Assembly (NCBI RefSeq): GCF_001029285.1
Contig: NZ_LDZY01000005.1
Coordinates: 186,001-250,000, forward strand
Direction: 5' to 3'
Source of the DNA: Desulfosporosinus acididurans
Lineage (GTDB): Bacteria > Bacillota > Desulfitobacteriia > Desulfitobacteriales > Desulfitobacteriaceae
DNA length: 64,000 nucleotides
Shown: piece after piece, positions 47,223 to 57,774 of the stretch
Layout: each line of letters begins with the position of its first letter
Numbering within the stretch: position 1 is the first letter of the stretch
Position numbers and translations under genes: made by a program
The notes under the pieces: model-generated
What the model was told of the DNA's origin: nothing
The model's input: the letters and a program-made list of their open reading frames with translations, nothing else
Databases searched by the model: none

Positions 47223-49058
47223 TTAATTCCAAAACACCTGATATCTATGGGTTCCACTCAATGTTATAATTTTTGTTTTAGTAAAAAAATTATAATTTTG
47301 ATTGTCTAGCATAACCTTCTTAATATATCCAAACCCCATATCACCTAAATCAATAGTACCTGATCCAGTTACCTTACTGAAGCATATGGTTTTGGCATTA
47401 ACATTTACGTCAACAAGGTCCCTGTCGAAAAATGGCATATTTGAAACTAATCCAAAAACACCTATTGGCAAGTCATTCTGCCAGTCAATCGATACTCCTG
47501 CACTTGGATGGATACTATTAAACAGAATATACGTAGGTAAGTAAAATATCTGTGCCATGTAGCTAGGGGACCCATATTTCAAATCAAAGCCATAAGGCGG
47601 TTGAGTTTCTGTTATATCCACATAACCATTAGGTTCATTAATGTTATCCCCAACCTTTGAATGATCAAGAAACTTATTAATAACTCTATTGCTTATTAAT
47701 CTATAAATTGAGTTGCCTGATTCTTGGCTTAATAATTCCATACCTAACGGGAACTGTATGGCAGCATAATTTAATTGAGAAGTGCTATCGCTTCCCCAGT
47801 ATTCACCGGTTTGTCCATTCAACTGGTGAGGAACCATATTATTTTTTAAACCGAAGCCTGACACAAAAATATTATTAGCATGTTCCAAACTACTTTGATA
47901 TAATATCCCTTTTGGTTGGTCTAGTACTTTTTCCGCCTCAAGCAAAGTTCCGATAAACAAGCCATACATAGTTTCTACGGTTTGAGCACTTGGAGTTCCG
48001 TCTAAATGTGTCATATATCTAAATCCACCACCATTAAAATTTTTATCCCATATGTGTTCAACTAATGAAGATGAGTAGGTATTTAGAATTTCTATAATAT
48101 CTTTATCTTTAGTTACTTGGTATGCTAAAGTTAATGCTCTAATGTATGCTCCACCCATATCATCATACCGAAAATCAGAATAAGGGTACAAATTCTTACC
48201 AGGTTTATTTATTTTTACGTCCCACACCTCGGGAATTAGATTGTTTGATTTATCACGACACTTCCAAACTGCTTTTAAAATGTCTAGTGCTTTTTGCTTA
48301 TATTGCAGTTTGGAAGGATCCGTTTTATAAGCTATGAGTAAAGACTGTGCACAATTAGAACAATTTTGCCCAAGTTGAGTTTCATAACTGGTTCCTATCG
48401 TGAACGCCTCTTTTCCTGAAAGAGTATTTACTTGATACCAGGTTAAGTTGTTGCTAGGATTAATGCCATAAGTAATAAGAGCGTTCGTTAATTTATACAT
48501 TAAAGGTAAATACTTCTTATCCTCGTGAGCCAAAAAAGCAACTGTTTGTACTGCCTGCAGTTGGCCTTTTCCACCTAAATAAGTATTTGGATTAGTCGAT
48601 ATTTCTCCTTTATTTGGAAAAGTAGGGATTAATCCAGTACTTGGCAAGATCGTACTCAAATAATCGGCATTTCTTTTAACAACATCTAAATATTTTAAAT
48701 CACCCGTTGCCTGAAAAGTGGCCATTAGGGAAAAACTCGTATCGAAGTACGTATCGTCGGAAGATGTTTTAGTTTGATAATTATACATTTTAAAAATACC
48801 TGAATCCTTTGAACATGAAAATTCATAACCGGAAAAGGCATAATTTAGGGCATCTAAAGAATCCATGAATGTAAGTTTTTCTTCTGAAGAATCAGATACA
48901 TTATTATTTTTTGATACTGACGATTCGTATGTAGTTTTCTCTTTAACGGGAGAGACACTAGGTATGTTACCTACAGTTACAGTTAACGTTAGTCCTATAG
49001 ATGCAATTGTTATTAGAAAAATAAGTGTTAATCTTCTATATAACTTGTTAATTTTCAC
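47223..49058 (-). CDS. Secreted (alpha/alpha)6-barrel protein, glycoside-hydrolase-like
   Basis: This 611-residue protein has an N-terminal membrane/signal segment (about 9-30). A long helical-repeat region follows (about 60-500) with motifs of six-hairpin glycosidases and C5-epimerases: TYFDTSFSLMATFQATGDLKYLDVVKRNADYL, YSDFRYDDMGGAYIRALTLAYQ, GGGFRYMTHLDGTP. A short beta-rich C-terminus ends the protein. Polysaccharide cleavage or modification is likely, but the exact family is not recognised. AGGGGG lies 6 bases before GTG 49058. It stands alone downstream of the comQXPA-like cassette. Confidence 0.65.
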   Translation of the reverse strand: MKINKLYRRLTLIFLITIASIGLTLTVTVGNIPSVSPVKEKTTYESSVSKNNNVSDSSEEKLTFMDSLDALNYAFSGYEFSCSKDSGIFKMYNYQTKTSSDDTYFDTSFSLMATFQATGDLKYLDVVKRNADYLSTILPSTGLIPTFPNKGEISTNPNTYLGGKGQLQAVQTVAFLAHEDKKYLPLMYKLTNALITYGINPSNNLTWYQVNTLSGKEAFTIGTSYETQLGQNCSNCAQSLLIAYKTDPSKLQYKQKALDILKAVWKCRDKSNNLIPEVWDVKINKPGKNLYPYSDFRYDDMGGAYIRALTLAYQVTKDKDIIEILNTYSSSLVEHIWDKNFNGGGFRYMTHLDGTPSAQTVETMYGLFIGTLLEAEKVLDQPKGILYQSSLEHANNIFVSGFGLKNNMVPHQLNGQTGEYWGSDSTSQLNYAAIQFPLGMELLSQESGNSIYRLISNRVINKFLDHSKVGDNINEPNGYVDITETQPPYGFDLKYGSPSYMAQIFYLPTYILFNSIHPSAGVSIDWQNDLPIGVFGLVSNMPFFDRDLVDVNVNAKTICFSKVTGSGTIDLGDMGFGYIKKVMLDNQNYNFFTKTKIITLSGTHRYQVFWN

Positions 49059-50207: not shown

Positions 50208-50539
50208 ATCTGAGGGCGTCTTTATTTAAATGCGATAGCATCTAAATACTTTTCATATTTCGCAAAATTATGATCTAATATATGGTAGTATTAGATATTT
50301 TGTTATTTAATTGCTTTTATTAGATTATAACGTATAGCAATAATTTCAACCACGTACCAAAGTACAGGTTTCATTAAAAAAATACCTGTACTTTAGTACA
50401 GGTATTAAATCGTACAGGCTTAACTAAGACGTGTTGCTGTGTCTTTTATTTTCTGGTTATCCAAACTTCTTATAATATTTATTTTAATGTTATTCATTCT
50501 TATTCTTCGACATCTCTTTCCAAGCAGCAGCCGCCTTTG
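50208..50539. repeat. comA 3' end and flank, original copy (332 bases)
   Basis: This is the counterpart of 46871-47197. Here the repeat continues upstream into the complete comA-like gene, so this is the parental side. The right edge of the repeat lies inside comA and the left edge at the start of the lipoprotein relic. Confidence 0.8.
50381..50406 (-). terminator. Terminator of the comQXPA-like operon
   Basis: AATACCTGTACT and AGTACAGGTATT form a 12-pair stem; on the minus strand it runs into TTTTTTT. It lies about 84 bases after the comA-like stop and is duplicated in the repeat at 46871-47197. Confidence 0.8.
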
Positions 50540-51176
50540 ATCGGGATTTTACACCGAATTTATGAAGTATATTGCTTGTGTGAAATTTTACCGTTCTAAT
50601 GGTAATACCTAAAGCTAAGGAAATTTCCTGATTGTTTAAACCCTTTATTATGTGATTCATTATTTCCGCTTCTCTGCCAGACAGTACTTTATCGTTTGGT
50701 TTTGGCGTTATACTTTGCTGATCATCATTGTTATCTACAACCTCCACCTTTAGAAAATGCGCCAAGCCTTTTGAAAAGTATTCTTTTCCCTCTACTACAT
50801 AATGAATAGCCTCAATCATTTCTGTTTTGTTACATTCTTTAAGCAGAAATCCCTGAACTCCTTTCTGCAGTGATTTTGTAAGATACCCTTCTGGATTCAG
50901 GCCTGTAAGCATAATTATTTTCACTTCGGGGTGAATCGATTTAATATCATCAATTAAATTAATACCTGAACAATCCGGCAAACTTATATCAAGTAAAATA
51001 ACATCTGGCGCCGTTGATTTTAAGAGATTCAGGCATTGGACTCCATCATTTGCGATTCCCACTATCTCCAGAATTGTTTCCGACGACAGCAAGGACACGG
51101 TTCCTTCCACAAAAAGAGTATGGTCATCGACTATTAATATTTTCAGCATTTTAGACTTCTCATTGTCCAATGCCAT
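50490..51176 (-). CDS. comA: ComA-like NarL-family response regulator
   Basis: This 228-residue regulator has a receiver with D17/D18, phosphoacceptor D63 (VILLDISLPDCSG), T in MLTG and K in LLKEC. The C-terminal GerE helix-turn-helix (about 165-228) contains GREAEIMNHIIKGLNNQEISLALGITIRTVKFHTSNILHKFGVKSRSKAAA. It overlaps the kinase gene by 17 bases. ATG 51149 is an alternative start. In B. subtilis ComA is phosphorylated by ComP when prenylated ComX accumulates; the same wiring is inferred here from the cassette. Binding sites were not identified. Confidence 0.85.
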   Translation of the reverse strand: MALDNEKSKMLKILIVDDHTLFVEGTVSLLSSETILEIVGIANDGVQCLNLLKSTAPDVILLDISLPDCSGINLIDDIKSIHPEVKIIMLTGLNPEGYLTKSLQKGVQGFLLKECNKTEMIEAIHYVVEGKEYFSKGLAHFLKVEVVDNNDDQQSITPKPNDKVLSGREAEIMNHIIKGLNNQEISLALGITIRTVKFHTSNILHKFGVKSRSKAAAAWKEMSKNKNE

Positions 51177-53550
51177 CTTTCATATCTTCCTCTCTTATTG
51201 GAATTGTAGCTTTAAGGATCGTACCCTGATAAACTGCAGAACTGATTTGCAGTTCTCCGCCTAAACCTTCGAGCCTTTCTTTCATTCCAACTAACCCAAA
51301 ATGATTACTGGATAATTGCCAGTCCTCTAATTTAGTAACATCCAATCCCTTGCCAAAATCTCTTATCATTAATTCAAGCTTAGAGTAGTTTAACTCAATT
51401 TTAAGAGTTATCTTACTGGAACCAGAGTGCTTTATTGCGTTCGTTATTCCTTCCTGTAGAAAGCGATAAGCTACCAGTTCTACGTCTCCTTTCAAACGCA
51501 CCCTGTCACTAAAACCGGCCATTTCTAGGGAAATTATCACAGACTCATGTTCCATTTTTTCTTCGCACAGCGTTTGGACGGCATAAAACAATCCTAAATC
51601 CGTTAAAGTTTGAGGACGTAAATCACTACAAATTGAGCGTAGTTCAAAATTTAAATTACTTATTACTTCCCGCATATGCTTAATAGCTTGGGGCGCTTTG
51701 TTAACTTTATCGTTTAGACATTCTTCTTCGATATCATCTAGCCATCGATTCAGGTCTAGCGCTAACTGTAATGATCCATCGTGAAGATCCTGAGCTAATG
51801 CTTTTTTCTCTTGTTCAAAGTTCTTAAAGAAGAGACTGTTTACTCGCTGTAACGATTGAATTTTCCGTTGGTAACTCTGCAATTGTTGAGTAAGGGACTT
51901 CACTTCTTCTGACAATTCTTTAATAAGTAACGTAGTTATGAGCCGCTGAGCTAATTGACTTAATATTAAAGTAATAGTAGGTAATTCATCGCGTTCAAAT
52001 TTGATATGTGAATATCGATGGCCTAAAAATATTCCGCAAGTAAACTCATTTGTCCTATACAAACTATAAATTTCAGCAGGCAACTCATCTGAGAGTATTC
52101 TTGCTTCTGAGTGGATCTTTGGATCTGTTTTGTAATATTCTACGAGTTTAACTTGCTCACTTGGTTTTTGGGAAAATAGGCCTTCAGATTTCTTGAAATA
52201 GTTTCCATTACCATGTTCTATGATTGCAAAGACTCCTTCAATAGCCAGGCTTTTAGCCACCTCTTCTAATATCTGTTCTTCTTCTTTAATTGAACTAAGT
52301 CTTTGGTTTAATTCGAGGATTCGTTTCTTAAGAGCCAGTTTTTCACCTAAAAATAAATTGTTTTTTAAGAATCGATTTATCGCAGCTCTTATCAAACCAA
52401 AACAAAGAATGAATATCATAATTAATGATAACGTCGAAAGATACAAGGCAAAATTTAGAGTCTTTATAATCCTTAAAACAAAGAGTAAATACGATATGAT
52501 TAAGCTCATTAGTGCTCCAGCTAGGACATAAGAAATCAGTGACCAAATAATCCTTCGGCTGTCCGGTAAATATTTATTGACTATGGCATAATACCAGGTA
52601 GCCGGAATAACGGAAATAAACAAGGAACTAACCTGGGCATTCATTATCGGTTGAAAGCCAAAGACAGCGGGAATTGCCGTCAAAAGAACGAATGGTGAGA
52701 ACCCTATCGCCATGCCCAGTAATAGAATATTCGTCTGGTTTTTTTCCGGTTTATCTTTAGACAACTTTAATATGTTACATAAATTCCAGAGTGTGAAAAG
52801 AACTCCAATGCTAACTGTTACTAACACCAGTTTTCTTAATGGACTAATAAATTGGACAATACCGACAGACTGTAGCACAGTTACGATTAATATGATTACC
52901 GACATTACTGTTAACATAAGGCGGCCTAATTGATTTATACGGTTTAAATTTTCATATGCAAAATTCGAGATAAAATTATTTATAAAAATAGGTACTGCCG
53001 CAAAAATTATGTACTCTAATTCCCTAGCCAATATTAAATCACGGCTCGAAGCCGGAGCCAGGACGAAAGCCAAACCGATAATCCAGTTCATCCAAAATAA
53101 ATCACGAGCTTGAACCAGAAAAGGACGTCGTAACCAAGTTATAAATCCTAAAACCCAAAAAATGAATCCCAGGATTAAAAAAGAAATATCGCTCAGTGTA
53201 CTCTGAAAAAGTGGAAGCTCAGGTATGTTAATCAACTGAACGGTTGACATGTCAGGTCTACGGACTTCGAGAGTTGATGCCCCTTCCACCTCACTCCATA
53301 TTTGAACAGAGCTGCTTTTACCAGGATCATCATGATTGATCTTTAAAATCAAATCCCCGTCACGTACGCCTGATTTGTACCCCTGGCCGACAGAATCACT
53401 GTAAGTCACGATCCATTGTCCATTGACGCTCTCAAGATCAAGACCGACGTAGGGGTGGTTATTGATAGCTACAGAATACACCAACAACAATAAGAGAAAG
53501 GCGGCACTCGCATAATAATATGCTTGCCGCCTAAATATTTTCTTTAACAA
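51160..53550 (-). CDS. comP: ComP-like quorum-sensing histidine kinase
   Basis: This 796-residue kinase has a membrane segment (13-30) followed by an outward PDZ-like domain (about 35-105, GYKSGVRDGDLILKIN). About eight membrane helices (about 115-395) and a GAF-like/coiled-coil region come next. A HisKA_3 domain has H590 in AQDLHDGSLQLALDL, and the ATPase has EGITNAIKHSG, RDFGKGLDV and HFGLVGMKERLEGLGG. This is the architecture of ComP, the receptor for ComX. It begins at TTG 53550, overlapping comQ by 20 bases, so it is translationally coupled. Confidence 0.85.
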   Translation of the reverse strand: MLKKIFRRQAYYYASAAFLLLLLVYSVAINNHPYVGLDLESVNGQWIVTYSDSVGQGYKSGVRDGDLILKINHDDPGKSSSVQIWSEVEGASTLEVRRPDMSTVQLINIPELPLFQSTLSDISFLILGFIFWVLGFITWLRRPFLVQARDLFWMNWIIGLAFVLAPASSRDLILARELEYIIFAAVPIFINNFISNFAYENLNRINQLGRLMLTVMSVIILIVTVLQSVGIVQFISPLRKLVLVTVSIGVLFTLWNLCNILKLSKDKPEKNQTNILLLGMAIGFSPFVLLTAIPAVFGFQPIMNAQVSSLFISVIPATWYYAIVNKYLPDSRRIIWSLISYVLAGALMSLIISYLLFVLRIIKTLNFALYLSTLSLIMIFILCFGLIRAAINRFLKNNLFLGEKLALKKRILELNQRLSSIKEEEQILEEVAKSLAIEGVFAIIEHGNGNYFKKSEGLFSQKPSEQVKLVEYYKTDPKIHSEARILSDELPAEIYSLYRTNEFTCGIFLGHRYSHIKFERDELPTITLILSQLAQRLITTLLIKELSEEVKSLTQQLQSYQRKIQSLQRVNSLFFKNFEQEKKALAQDLHDGSLQLALDLNRWLDDIEEECLNDKVNKAPQAIKHMREVISNLNFELRSICSDLRPQTLTDLGLFYAVQTLCEEKMEHESVIISLEMAGFSDRVRLKGDVELVAYRFLQEGITNAIKHSGSSKITLKIELNYSKLELMIRDFGKGLDVTKLEDWQLSSNHFGLVGMKERLEGLGGELQISSAVYQGTILKATIPIREEDMKDGIGQ

Positions 53551-54496
53551 GTTTGATCATCTTCTCTTTGCGTTTTTCCGGAACAGAAATTGCTTGAATG
53601 ATTTCCATTGACTTTTGCCGGAATAGTTCGTACATCACTCTGCCGTAATGTACTGCTCCTTCATCAAGGGTTAATTGTTGTAAATTGCCTTGTTCTTCCT
53701 TCCCGAACCTTTCTAATACGTTGCCTTTCAGCTGGGTTAGTTCTTTGAACTGTTTGGCTTGTTTACCTTTGAGAATGTTCAAAAGATAGACATACGGCAA
53801 AGTTTTTTTATGATTAACAAAATCCTTTTTCTTATCGAAGTCTAAAAAGTCGTTTATATCATTCCTGATTTGACTCATGATACCCAGGTATGTCCCAAAC
53901 TGATTTAATTGAAGCACCAACGATTCTGACCCACCACCTAAGGTCGCGCCGATTTTACAGGCACAGGCCGTTAAACTTCCTGACTTATGCTTGACTAGCT
54001 CAAAATATTGGTCAAGCGTAACCTGCTCACGAGTATCAAACAAAGCGTCTTGGAGTTGACCATCACTACACGTTATCCACATATGGCTTAGAATTTGGCC
54101 AATTTCCCTGTAGAGTCTGCTATCTCTATCATCAGGTAACATCGAAATAGCCTCATAGCTTAACATACTTAAACAGCTAGCAAGGTTTAGAGCGTGAGCT
54201 GTGGGGATTTGGCGCCACGGTAAGTCATCATGATCCTGATCTTGAATATCATCAAAAATATCAATCGCCAGTGCAGATAATTCCATGGCAATTGCGCCTG
54301 GCAACGCATCTTCAAACACTCCGCTTACACACTCACAATTCATGAGCGTTAAGTGTGCCCATTGAAATAGTTCACCAGTCTCGCTGTCGGCGTTCAAGGA
54401 GGAATTAATCATAGCGATCATTTCGGAACTAAGTTGAGCACTCGTCAGGATTTTATTAATTCCGGCAGTAATAGCTTGATCAAGCTGAAGCTTCAT
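53531..54496 (-). CDS. comQ: ComQ-like isoprenyl transferase
   Basis: This 321-residue member of the polyprenyl synthetase fold has the first Asp-rich motif DDIQD (82-86) and a second NDINDFLDFD at about 213-222 followed by KK. Both bind diphosphate and magnesium. In ComQ enzymes this site attaches a farnesyl or geranyl group to a Trp of ComX. The gene begins 6 bases after the small ComX-like gene and overlaps the kinase gene, which points to pheromone modification rather than general prenyl synthesis. The second motif departs from the classic DDxxD, as in ComQ. Confidence 0.85.
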   Translation of the reverse strand: MKLQLDQAITAGINKILTSAQLSSEMIAMINSSLNADSETGELFQWAHLTLMNCECVSGVFEDALPGAIAMELSALAIDIFDDIQDQDHDDLPWRQIPTAHALNLASCLSMLSYEAISMLPDDRDSRLYREIGQILSHMWITCSDGQLQDALFDTREQVTLDQYFELVKHKSGSLTACACKIGATLGGGSESLVLQLNQFGTYLGIMSQIRNDINDFLDFDKKKDFVNHKKTLPYVYLLNILKGKQAKQFKELTQLKGNVLERFGKEEQGNLQQLTLDEGAVHYGRVMYELFRQKSMEIIQAISVPEKRKEKMIKLVKENI

Positions 54497-54502
54497 CCCC
54501 TT

Positions 54503-54691
54503 TTATCCCCAAAAATGTAGTGGTATAGTACCAAGCGTTATGTCTTCTCCCGATACCTCGAAATCAGAAAGAACCTTTTTAATGACCGTGGCCTCATGGG
54601 AATTTATTTGTGTAGATGCCAAGCTGTTGTTATGAGCATTTTTGACTGAATCATGAACAATTTTAGCAATATCATTGTAATTCATTTTCAA
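54503..54691 (-). CDS. comX: ComX-like pheromone precursor
   Basis: This 62-residue precursor without a signal peptide ends in GTIPLHFWG. A Trp one residue from the C-terminus (W61) is the likely prenylation site, as in ComX peptides whose Trp lies near the end. The N-terminal part is helical (MNYNDIAKIVHDSVKNA and HEATVIKKVLSDFE), comparable to ComX pro-regions. AAAGGG precedes the ATG. The order is comX-comQ-comP-comA, with comX first, whereas B. subtilis has comQ-comX-comP-comA. The mature peptide length is unknown. Confidence 0.75.
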   Translation of the reverse strand: MKMNYNDIAKIVHDSVKNAHNNSLASTQINSHEATVIKKVLSDFEVSGEDITLGTIPLHFWG

Positions 54692-54920
54692 GCACCCTTT
54701 CTTTAATCATTAATTTAATTCCTTACCATATATAACTATTATTTCATTTATTTCTTCTTAGTCCTATCCTTTTCCTGCTACAATATTTAGCAAATGCTGT
54801 CGAATGCTTTTTCATAATAAAACCTTATCGAATAGTTAAGTTGCCGCTTCATATATTCAATGTTTCGCAACACCGATGAAATCCATAATTGACCTCGACT
54901 TGTTTTTCGACTATCACAGT

Positions 54921-55062
54921 ATCTCTCTCACCTCCAACCCCACCTTAAGTATAAACACCACCTCAACCATCGACTCTACTCTAACCTTCTCAACCAACTT
55001 CCGGAATAAGTCCCCATCAAACCTATCCAGTGCCTCGCCATCCAGATAAGCCTTGAATTCTT
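54921..55062 (-). pseudogene. Relic of a serine-recombinase C-terminus
   Basis: This segment matches 55790-55940, the last about 45 codons of the recombinase at 55790-56839, at high identity and then stops matching. Beyond it (55070-55130) is a GAGTGTC/GACACTC hairpin that may end transcription. Bases 54692-54920, upstream of comX, contain AT-rich sequence that should hold the comX promoter, but no convincing boxes were fixed. Confidence 0.7.
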
Positions 55063-55197
55063 CTGCCAATAAAAAGAGTGTCACAGCCACTAAAAAATTA
55101 GTTTTGCGACACTCCTAAAACTAAGAGACGATATCGTAACAATTCAGTTTTAAATATACATGAAGTGTGACTATGACAACCTCTAAAAGCATTTTAT

Positions 55198-55789: not shown

Positions 55790-56839
55790 TTATAAAATCT
55801 CCTTTACCTCTAACCCCACCTTAAGCACGAACTCCACCTCAACCATCGATTCCACTCTAACCTTCTCAACCAACTTCCGGAATAAGTCCCCATCAAACCT
55901 ATCCAGTGCCTCGCCATCCAGATAAGCCTTGAATTCTTCAACCAACCTGCCCTTCCACGCTCTCTCGGACTCATCAGTCTTCATTCTTTGACTATGCGCC
56001 TGCAACCTTTCAATTTCAGCAGTTGAATATTCCTGATTATTCCGCACCGCATCAATCAACTCTTGCTGAAGTTCAGCTATCTTTGCATCGATAGCCTCGA
56101 AGTCAAACTCAGGTCCACTAGTTTCTTCTATTATAATGGCCTCTTTATTGGTGATGATCCGATTCATCGCCCGCACAAACGCCTTCTCCAAAGCTTTATC
56201 CTTAACAGCCTTCATATCACAATCGCCGCCCGTTTGATGGTTAATACATATCCAAACAATCTGCAGATTCTTACCGCTTCCCCATTTGCTGCGCCGAAAT
56301 TTACTACCGCAATTCCCGCAAAACAACTTGCCGGAAAAAGCGTAGTCACTTGTGAATTTGCTTTTCCCAGTCTTAGAATACCCCCGCAGGTTTGACCGCC
56401 TTTCAAACTCAGCCTGCACTGCCGCAAACTCTTCCTTAGAAACAATAGCTTCATGACTATCCTCAACATAATACTGGGCTGCGTGTCCAGTATTTATCAC
56501 ACGCTTTTTGGTCAAAAAATCCAAGGTGTAGGTTTTTTGGAGCAGCGCATCTCCCATATACTTCACATTTTTTAGTATCCCAACGACGGTGCTATCATAC
56601 CACTTTGTACCACCAGCGCCAGTGATTACTCCATCTTTTTGCAGGTTACTGGCTATTTTATATGGGCTCTTGCCATCAAGAAACTCCCGATATATCCGGC
56701 GAACAGTCTCGGCTTCCTCGGGTGCTATAATTAACTGGCCCTGTTCATCCTTGGTATACCCGAGAAATTTGTTATGGTTAACTAAAACCTTTCCCTCTTG
56801 AAACCTGTAACTAATACCCATCTTCGTAATCTGCGACAA
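55790..56839 (-). pseudogene. Large serine recombinase lacking its catalytic domain
   Basis: About 350 residues cover the recombinase DNA-binding domain (GISYRFQEGKVLVNHNKFLGY, YREFLDGKSPYKIASNLQ), the zinc ribbon (FCGNCGSKFRR and CINHQTGGDC) and the coiled-coil tail. The N-terminal resolvase domain with the catalytic Ser is missing; the frame is closed by a TAA just before QEESSNLSQ, so it cannot recombine DNA. The family includes SpoIVCA, which excises the skin element from sigK. Its place directly downstream of sigK is the place of spoIVCA in B. subtilis. Bases 56840-57030 hold only decayed sequence. Confidence 0.8.
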
Positions 56840-57030
56840 GTTGGAACTCTCTTCTTGTTACGTCCGCGGAAACATAACTGACGACCTTCACATTTGAGTG
56901 AGTTACCTTGTATAACTGATTCTTTGTTAACCTGAAGTGTCCTATTGCAAAGCCCTTCAATGGCCTCGTTCACGAATTTAATGAAGTTTAATCATTATAT
57001 TTCCCATTCCCATATCTACCCATATCGTTA

Positions 57031-57774
57031 TTATTTCGGATCAATCCTCTTCATCTCTTCCATCAGCTTTTGAATCGCCTTTTTTTCTATCCTTGACACG
57101 TAAGACCGTGATATCTCCAGAACTTTTGCAATCTCACGCTGGGTCCGCTTAGGGCTGTTCATGAGCCCATAGCGCAATTGAAGCACCATTTTCTCCCTCT
57201 TGGTAAGTTTTTTGACGAGCTCCAATAACGCTTTCTGCTCCGAAGCATTTTCAACTCTAATTGAAATATCCTCTTCATTAGAACCCAGAACATCAATGAG
57301 AGAAATCTCGTTTCCTTCTTTATCCATGCCAATAGGATCGTATATAGACACTTCCCCTCGGGATTTCTTCAAGGATCTCAGATGCATCAAAATTTCGTTT
57401 TCAATACACCGGGCCGCATAAGTTGCCAGCTTGGTCCCCTTCCCGGGATCAAAGGTGTTGATGCCTTTAATTAAACCAATGGTTCCAATGGAGATCAGAT
57501 CATCCCCATCCTCTCCCGTTCCGTCAAATTTTTTGACAAGATGAGCCACTAAGCGCAAATTATGTTCTACAAGCGTATTACGCGCGTGCTCCACCTCACG
57601 AGTCATTGTAAAGGGCTGCGTTGATTTGCTTTTGCTTAAAATTGATAAACATCGAGCTTCTTCATGCTCGCTCAATGGTTGGGGAAAAGCATTATTATTA
57701 ATATAAGAAACTAGTAAGGTTACGCCTTTGAGAACGGATAGAGCAATTGCAGCCAGCAAAAATTCAGTGAACAC
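57031..57774 (-). CDS. sigK: Pro-sigma-K, late mother-cell sporulation sigma factor
   Basis: This 247-residue sigma factor has a hydrophobic pro-sequence (about 1-25) followed by SYINNNAFPQPLS, as in pro-sigma-K, which SpoIVFB cleaves. Region 2 (LRLVAHLVKKFDGTGEDGDDLISIGTIGLIKGINTFDPGKGTKLATYAARCIENEILMHLR) and region 4 (REKMVLQLRYGLMNSPKRTQREIAKVLEISRSYVSRIEKKA) are complete. GTG 57774 is preceded by AAGGGG. In the mother cell it drives late coat and cortex genes. Codons 80-247 are duplicated at 23378-23884. The neighbouring dead recombinase suggests an ancient insertion history. Confidence 0.93.
   Translation of the reverse strand: MFTEFLLAAIALSVLKGVTLLVSYINNNAFPQPLSEHEEARCLSILSKSKSTQPFTMTREVEHARNTLVEHNLRLVAHLVKKFDGTGEDGDDLISIGTIGLIKGINTFDPGKGTKLATYAARCIENEILMHLRSLKKSRGEVSIYDPIGMDKEGNEISLIDVLGSNEEDISIRVENASEQKALLELVKKLTKREKMVLQLRYGLMNSPKRTQREIAKVLEISRSYVSRIEKKAIQKLMEEMKRIDPK

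Follow-up and report, generated by a model that had tools for sequence, protein, structure and literature searches.

The stretch of DNA analyzed here, called the window below, comprises 64,000 nucleotides of Desulfosporosinus acididurans (contig NZ_LDZY01000005.1, positions 186,001 to 250,000) and belongs to a genome of 4.64 Mb in 47 contigs. Desulfosporosinus species are strict anaerobes and live as sulfate reducers. The window carries four genes on the minus strand, which encode a ComX-like pheromone precursor, a ComQ-like tryptophan prenyltransferase, a ComP-like sensor kinase and a ComA-like response regulator (Table 1). Their order is comX-comQ-comP-comA (X-Q-P-A, referred to as X-first), with six bases between comX and comQ and overlaps of 20 bases between comQ and comP and of 17 bases between comP and comA. 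A sequence-only reading of the window had described such a cassette, with four overlapping or near-contiguous open reading frames (ORFs) on one strand, a terminator at the end, an order unlike the comQ-comX-comP-comA of B. subtilis and a clostridial-type spore former as the host. All of this was found, the order also in relatives. The peptide had been given 62 residues, which a start at TTG 54691 would yield; alignment with relatives places the start at ATG 54685, behind a AGAAAGGGTG-type ribosome-binding site, and this leaves 60. It had further been described as ending in a Trp. A Trp does lie near the end, but as the second to last residue and not the last.

Table 1. Features of the cassette; positions are those of the window.
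Feature	Position	Strand	Properties
comX-like pheromone precursor	54503..54685 (including stop codon)	-	60 amino acids, ATG start, C-terminus PLHFWG
comQ-like tryptophan prenyltransferase	53531..54496	-	321 amino acids; first Asp motif DDIQD, pseudo-second motif NDIND
comP-like sensor kinase	51160..53550	-	796 amino acids, TTG start within the 3' end of comQ
comA-like response regulator	50490..51176	-	228 amino acids, receiver and LuxR-type helix-turn-helix
terminator-like hairpin	50381..50406	-	11 pairs and T run, about 85 bases past comA

The scan that yielded the hairpin behind comA gave six terminator-like sites versus 2.7 +/- 1.7 in shuffled sequences; two others, both weaker, lie inside comP on the strand of the cassette. 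Promoter-like sites were not above the shuffles in the same scan (15 versus 16.0). Taken together with the relatives described below, the four genes very probably constitute a ComQXPA-type cassette for quorum sensing by a prenylated peptide. Its order, X-Q-P-A, is seen repeatedly in Desulfosporosinus and related bacteria.

The enzyme matches PF00348 (1.1e-21), the profile proposed as a check by the sequence-only reading, and its predicted structure shows an isoprenyl-synthase fold (pLDDT, the predicted local distance difference test, 89.9). The atypical second Asp motif that had been claimed along with this fold is indeed present. In ComQ the first Asp motif is required and the second must be NDxxx or GDxxx; replacing its Asn by Asp drastically decreased the activity (PMC5331326). 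In our tree 45 ComQ-like rows, the window enzyme among them, stand apart from ten others (nine housekeeping prenyl synthases and one Streptomyces protein) with a support of 100/100. All 45 have the NDxxx motif. DDxxD is found in the nine housekeeping rows, and likewise in every locus of a set of 10 housekeeping loci that shares nine members with these rows; the Streptomyces row has neither motif. The canonical ComQs, including those of Bacillus safensis and Natronobacillus, form one group with two Lysinibacillus rows inside the 45, and the X-first ComQs are placed around it. The relative age of the two gene orders is not claimed, because the tree is midpoint rooted and several long branches meet. 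In Lysinibacillus loci L079 and L081, comQ is preceded on its own strand by comP and comA.

By its clade and its NDxxx signature the window enzyme is of the ComQ type. That it could instead be an ordinary or terpenoid prenyl-diphosphate synthase, with the small ORF unrelated to it, is extremely unlikely. Such enzymes share the fold, provide the best PDB matches and are also the best NCBIfam matches, the latter far below the cut-off, yet clade, signature and linkage with the peptide contradict this explanation. A housekeeping synthase is ruled out by tree and motif. An anti-phage reading was rejected as well, as PADLOC gave no match for the enzyme or the peptide.

The peptide has relatives at the same place. 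Aligning 22 peptides of the family (alignment A1) showed Met1, Ala7, Pro55 and Trp59 to be invariant (window numbering). The leader, of the type MNYxxIAELVHELVKNP, is conserved and so is a second block around VFS; the middle is variable. All 22 share the PxxxW tail and have Trp second to last (L040 ends WW). Among 12 further peptides this holds for 11; the remaining one (L122) ends in Trp. X-first precursors measure 58-66 residues. For the ComQ of the Bacillus strain tested, the Trp must sit second to fourth from the end (PMC5331326), and the Trp of the window peptide lies within these permitted positions. With a Bacillus ComQ, a dodecapeptide lacking the leader had roughly one tenth of the activity of the complete precursor (PMC5331326). 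The ratio of nonsynonymous to synonymous substitution rates (dN/dS) of comX was 0.16-0.47 in 12 of 13 pairs, which overlap and are not independent, and saturated in the remaining one; it was higher for comX than for comQ in 10 of 12 pairs. These ratios indicate that comX is under purifying selection. A short ORF arising by chance is ruled out by the conservation in place and by dN/dS. The sequence-only reading had named in advance two outcomes that would speak against a ComX-ComQ-ComP-ComA-type system: an enzyme clustering with farnesyl or heptaprenyl synthases of housekeeping function, and relatives that lack a homologous short ORF with a terminal Trp. Neither occurred; the enzyme groups with canonical ComQ, and the short ORF, with its Trp near the end, is present in relatives.

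The structure model of ComP (pLDDT 78.5; predicted template modeling score, pTM, 0.52) comprises a helix at residues 2-31, a beta-rich domain at 37-108, nine more long helices up to residue 398, a mixed domain at about 424-511 and then the dimerization and histidine phosphotransfer (DHp) and ATPase domains. Nine of the ten long helices before residue 400 overlap a hydropathy peak. The kinase had been described as a PDZ, multi-transmembrane HisKA_3 protein, which stood in part: HATPase_c passed its cut-off and the helices are present in the model, but HisKA_3 matched below its cut-off (18.7 versus 24 bits), and PDZ was not seen in the whole-protein Pfam scan of the window ComP, emerging only from the subdomain together with its relatives. 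A profile of residues 37-108 built from eight sequences matched 47 PDB sequences up to E 0.1, headed by DegQ (4e-5) and by proteins whose names indicate a PDZ domain. PDZ_6 was matched by all eight members, at best with 5.1e-7; the window's own match (0.019) is below the cut-off. By these profile matches the domain is PDZ-like. ComP of B. amyloliquefaciens has the same layout of ten helices with a PDZ domain between the first two, and this domain has been proposed to bind ComX (PMC9620489). A PDZ domain gripping the free C-terminus would suit a ligand whose Trp is fixed before the last residue. The regulator, claimed to be of the NarL type, passed the cut-offs of both Response_reg (PF00072, 3.7e-26) and GerE (PF00196, 9.3e-17) and recurs as the partner of the cassette in relatives.

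The peptide profile found matches at E <= 0.01 in 18 of 45 genomes of the family; in two of the 18 (G044, G037) all copies are broken or unlinked. The window genome has two matches, one of them weak (E 0.002) and located inside a 309-residue frame elsewhere. Searches with tblastn and inspection of ORFs led to 31 loci with 22 X-first peptides, and the complete X-Q-P-A set is present in 19 of the 22. L031 is cut off by the end of its contig ahead of comA, L036 has comA only in part, and the comP match of L053 is split over two reading frames. Five loci of the same genus (L054-L058) have the canonical order Q-X-P-A with a PF05952-positive ComX. More X-first loci were found in the named collection (L072, L078) and as L121-L124 and L126, the last being the same locus as L083; in L122 comA is 1.8 kb away. 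In an even draw of the phylum, 13 of 398 genomes gave 16 ComQ matches at E <= 1e-30. Eleven were better than 1e-100, and the other five, between 1e-53 and 1e-33, comprise four from canonical-type loci (L125, L130, L131, L132) and one fragment.

Other arrangements were observed as well. L127 and L128 have the order X-Q-A-P, with comA ahead of comP and a peptide intermediate between both ComX families, and the genome of L128 contains a second, partial Q-A-P copy (L129). At L137 (genome G019) a canonical comX that passes the PF05952 cut-off is accompanied by comP and comA, and no comQ match was found in the 12 kb examined there. Five genomes (G009, G012, G013, G035, G387) possess both an X-first locus and a canonical Q-X-P-A locus, and two prenyl-peptide channels may coexist in them.

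The loci of the family that lack an X-first peptide include a solitary comQ (L042), a locus of G044 with broken comX, comQ and comP (L049), and fragments in G022 (L059) and G018 (L060). With such degraded copies and the split comP of L053 in view, the window cassette, which lies beside a truncated recombinase, could be a once functional one that is drifting or silent in its host. We consider this very unlikely: none of the four window genes is interrupted, their motifs are conserved, and purifying selection acts on comX and comQ in relatives.

The solitary comQ belongs to G037, a Peptococcaceae draft genome that is 91% complete. Its ComQ is of the clade described here (3e-150); the next matches in this genome are weaker and unclassified (2.1e-24, 2.0e-10). 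In the stretch fetched around L042 no match to X, P or A was found. Elsewhere the genome has three full-length ComP-like kinases (L133, L134, L135) and a fourth match that covers just the kinase part. Directly upstream of each of the three kinases lies an X-first peptide with Trp and one residue at its end (5.5e-7, 3.0e-4 and 7.2e-4 versus the profile). A comA is found beside one pair only, and another pair lies at a contig end. By eye, one of the kinases reads Asp-Glu where His-Asp is usual at the phospho-acceptor site and seems to be without the phospho-acceptor His. Going by these sequences, the single ComQ may serve three pheromones.

If precursor and kinase are ligand and receptor, their variable parts should diverge together. 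Over 21 loci the mean divergence was 0.38 for the leader, 0.63 for the tail, 0.50 for the ComP input region and 0.41 for the kinase. The divergence of the tail tracks that of the membrane input of ComP when the kinase is allowed for (partial r 0.42; p 0.0005, the floor of 2000 permutations). The window locus itself is a mosaic. Past position 240 its comQ is 72-90% identical to the three nearest relatives, versus 47-54% for the stretch at the start of comX. For L031 alone the values are 81-90% past position 240 and 47% for the comX-start stretch including 60 upstream bases. The ComP input region is nearest to L031 and L033; from about 2.8 kb onwards the end of the kinase and comA are nearest to L032 (the comA of L031 lies off its contig). 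Such a mosaic would resemble an exchange of pheromone types.

For prenylation, signaling and targets of the cassette we infer the following course. The 60-residue precursor would be made and bound by ComQ, perhaps via its conserved N-terminal leader. The second-to-last Trp would receive a geranyl group, or a longer prenyl chain, from ComQ, as the ComQ motif and the published substrate rule for one Bacillus ComQ suggest. Proteolysis and export would free a short C-terminal peptide, and it is this trimmed, extracellular peptide that the input region of ComP, with its PDZ domain and ten helices, would detect. Judged by the domains, ComP would then phosphorylate ComA, which would respond.

Several results weigh against a ComQXPA-type cassette. 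The Pfam ComX profile (PF05952), a further check proposed by the sequence-only reading, is passed by none of the 22 X-first peptides, the window peptide included; two of the 22 reach it at all, with a best E of 0.034. The co-variation is not confined to the tail and ComP: the value for tail versus ComQ is 0.54, the leader also shows a relation, albeit a weaker one (0.25, p 0.015), and partial correlations remove shared ancestry incompletely. The ComA-like protein resembles many NarL-family regulators, and among the matches listed no such regulator is over its cut-off. Finally, the TTG-N10-CAA form of the B. subtilis ComA box is absent upstream of the window comX and present in only 2 of 22 loci.

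As for the profile, five of five canonical peptides of the same genus match PF05952 (best 3.7e-29). The test is nevertheless severe, because the B. subtilis control genome did not reach the cut-off either when genomes were searched; in another search no control gave a match. In an hhalign comparison with 11 canonical ComX peptides, alignment A1 gave 93% with a score of 35.2, versus at most 1.6% and 13.7 for 60 column shuffles and 0.1% for the reversed profile. With the last eight columns removed the value was still 84%. The peptides of L126-L128 match the X-first profile and bridge both families, and the L127 peptide matches both the X-first and the canonical profile (7.9e-13 and 7.1e-7). By profile comparison, the X-first precursors are distant homologues of ComX.

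Alternatively, the prenylated peptide could be mainly antimicrobial or another secreted ribosomally synthesized and post-translationally modified peptide (RiPP), with kinase and regulator controlling its own production and not responding to density. A precedent is PalQ/PalX/PalP of Paenibacillus alvei, a Trp prenyltransferase, a precursor and a kinase which were found as a RiPP cluster (PMC10853753). The surroundings of the loci argue against this alternative. Among 222 neighbor ORFs, ten families (ORFs of at least 90 amino acids) recur in at least 3 of the 31 loci; representatives of six of them are polysaccharide and cell-wall genes, and there is no exporter or immunity gene among those six. 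One of the four other families, recurring in 4 loci, looks by eye like an ATP-binding cassette (ABC) transporter. The peptide tail and the ComP input region also diverge in step, as a ligand and its receptor should, which likewise speaks for a pheromone. On balance a RiPP of this type is unlikely, and we prefer the quorum-sensing cassette.

A marked recurring neighborhood exists only in one clade (L043-L048, L050 and L072; support 99/94). There the cassette follows genes for a chain-length determinant (Wzz) and a polysaccharide tyrosine kinase in all eight loci, and is followed by a polysaccharide dehydratase gene in 6 of 8 and an exopolysaccharide glycosylphosphotransferase gene in 3 of 8, the gene names resting on one annotated representative per family. 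In the window, GDP-mannose dehydratase-like and glycosyltransferase genes lie 3-6 kb upstream, beyond recombinase and sigma-factor genes. A guess would be that the output of the cassette is the control of surface polysaccharide. The X-first loci could be a large separate branch of Trp-prenyl pheromone signaling, leader-guided and found in Bacillota outside Bacilli. Enzyme and substrates would be separable in this branch (as with the G037 ComQ and its three unlinked pairs), and one Desulfosporosinus clade, which has the cassette built into its exopolysaccharide cluster, would control that cluster with it. We put this forward tentatively, as possible rather than probable.

The upstream region of the window comX contains a stretch (54785-54802, minus strand, CGACA..AT..GCTAAAT) similar to stretches before comX in several relatives. 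A degenerate pattern derived by eye from the relatives occurs genome-wide once without mismatch, at the window comX, and with up to two mismatches at 71 sites versus 38 for the reversed control; nothing was drawn from it. Farther upstream, a sigma factor K gene (57031-57774, minus strand; over the NCBIfam SigK cut-off) adjoins a serine-recombinase-type ORF (region 55790-57774), for which Pfam gave Recombinase and zinc-ribbon domains and no resolvase catalytic domain. A piece resembling the C-terminus of this ORF recurs at 54914-55090. Together, sigK and the truncated recombinase are reminiscent of what is presumably the remnant of a sigK-interrupting (skin-like) element. Downstream of the cassette and on the same strand, a 611-residue protein (47223-49058, minus strand) was matched by neither Pfam nor NCBIfam at the thresholds applied.

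ComQXPA systems are not restricted to Bacillus. A 2014 census found comQXPA in Desulfosporosinus and Syntrophobotulus, in a clade distinct from that of B. subtilis, and described loci of canonical order as well as unusual ones with a hypothetical comX between comQ and comP (PMC4008528); a 2022 review likewise mentions the pathway in clostridia (PMC8895600). The non-B. subtilis clade of the census includes the genus of the window host. Unlike the loci reported there, the window locus is peptide-first, a type not found described in the census, whose supplementary tables lay outside the comparison. A literature search, to which those tables did not belong either, found no description of peptide-first loci with a PF05952-negative precursor and no isolated Trp-prenyl pheromone from sulfate reducers. 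The claim of a little-described system can hence be kept for the X-first type, but not for comQXPA in Desulfosporosinus as such, reported in 2014 (PMC4008528).

PalQ-PalX-PalP resembles the window cassette in its isoprenyl-synthase-fold enzyme, which prenylates a Trp at the end of the precursor, and in the adjoining kinase. However, PalQ clusters apart from ComQ, the leader of its precursor is of the NHLP type, and activity was abolished when alanines were appended behind the Trp of this precursor (PMC10853753). The window peptide has no NHLP match up to E 10 and one residue after its Trp, and is set apart from the PalQ family by the description of PalQ.

A 2017 review treats geranylation or farnesylation of Trp as a special modification of several Bacillus species, with no consensus known (PMC5331326). 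Outside Bacillus there is now a precursor family whose leader is conserved and whose PxxxW tail is fixed, which makes the question of recognition testable, and the X-first family offers many natural enzyme-substrate pairs for peptide lipidation. For sulfate reducers, the cassette suggests cell-density signaling.

With B. subtilis ComQXPA the window cassette shares four adjacent co-directional genes, a ComQ with the first Asp motif and NDxxx, a short precursor with Trp near its end and a variable tail, a ComP with PDZ and ten helices, and a LuxR-type regulator. It differs in its order, X-Q-P-A and not Q-X-P-A, in its host, and in a precursor type of 58-66 residues that fails PF05952, has a conserved leader and carries an invariant Pro four residues before a second-to-last Trp. 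We class it as a variant of ComQXPA, because its parts are homologous and its predicted working is the same, although it failed the tests of PF05952 and gene order. The presence of comQXPA in Desulfosporosinus was already known; what appears to be new is the X-first order with the divergent precursor.

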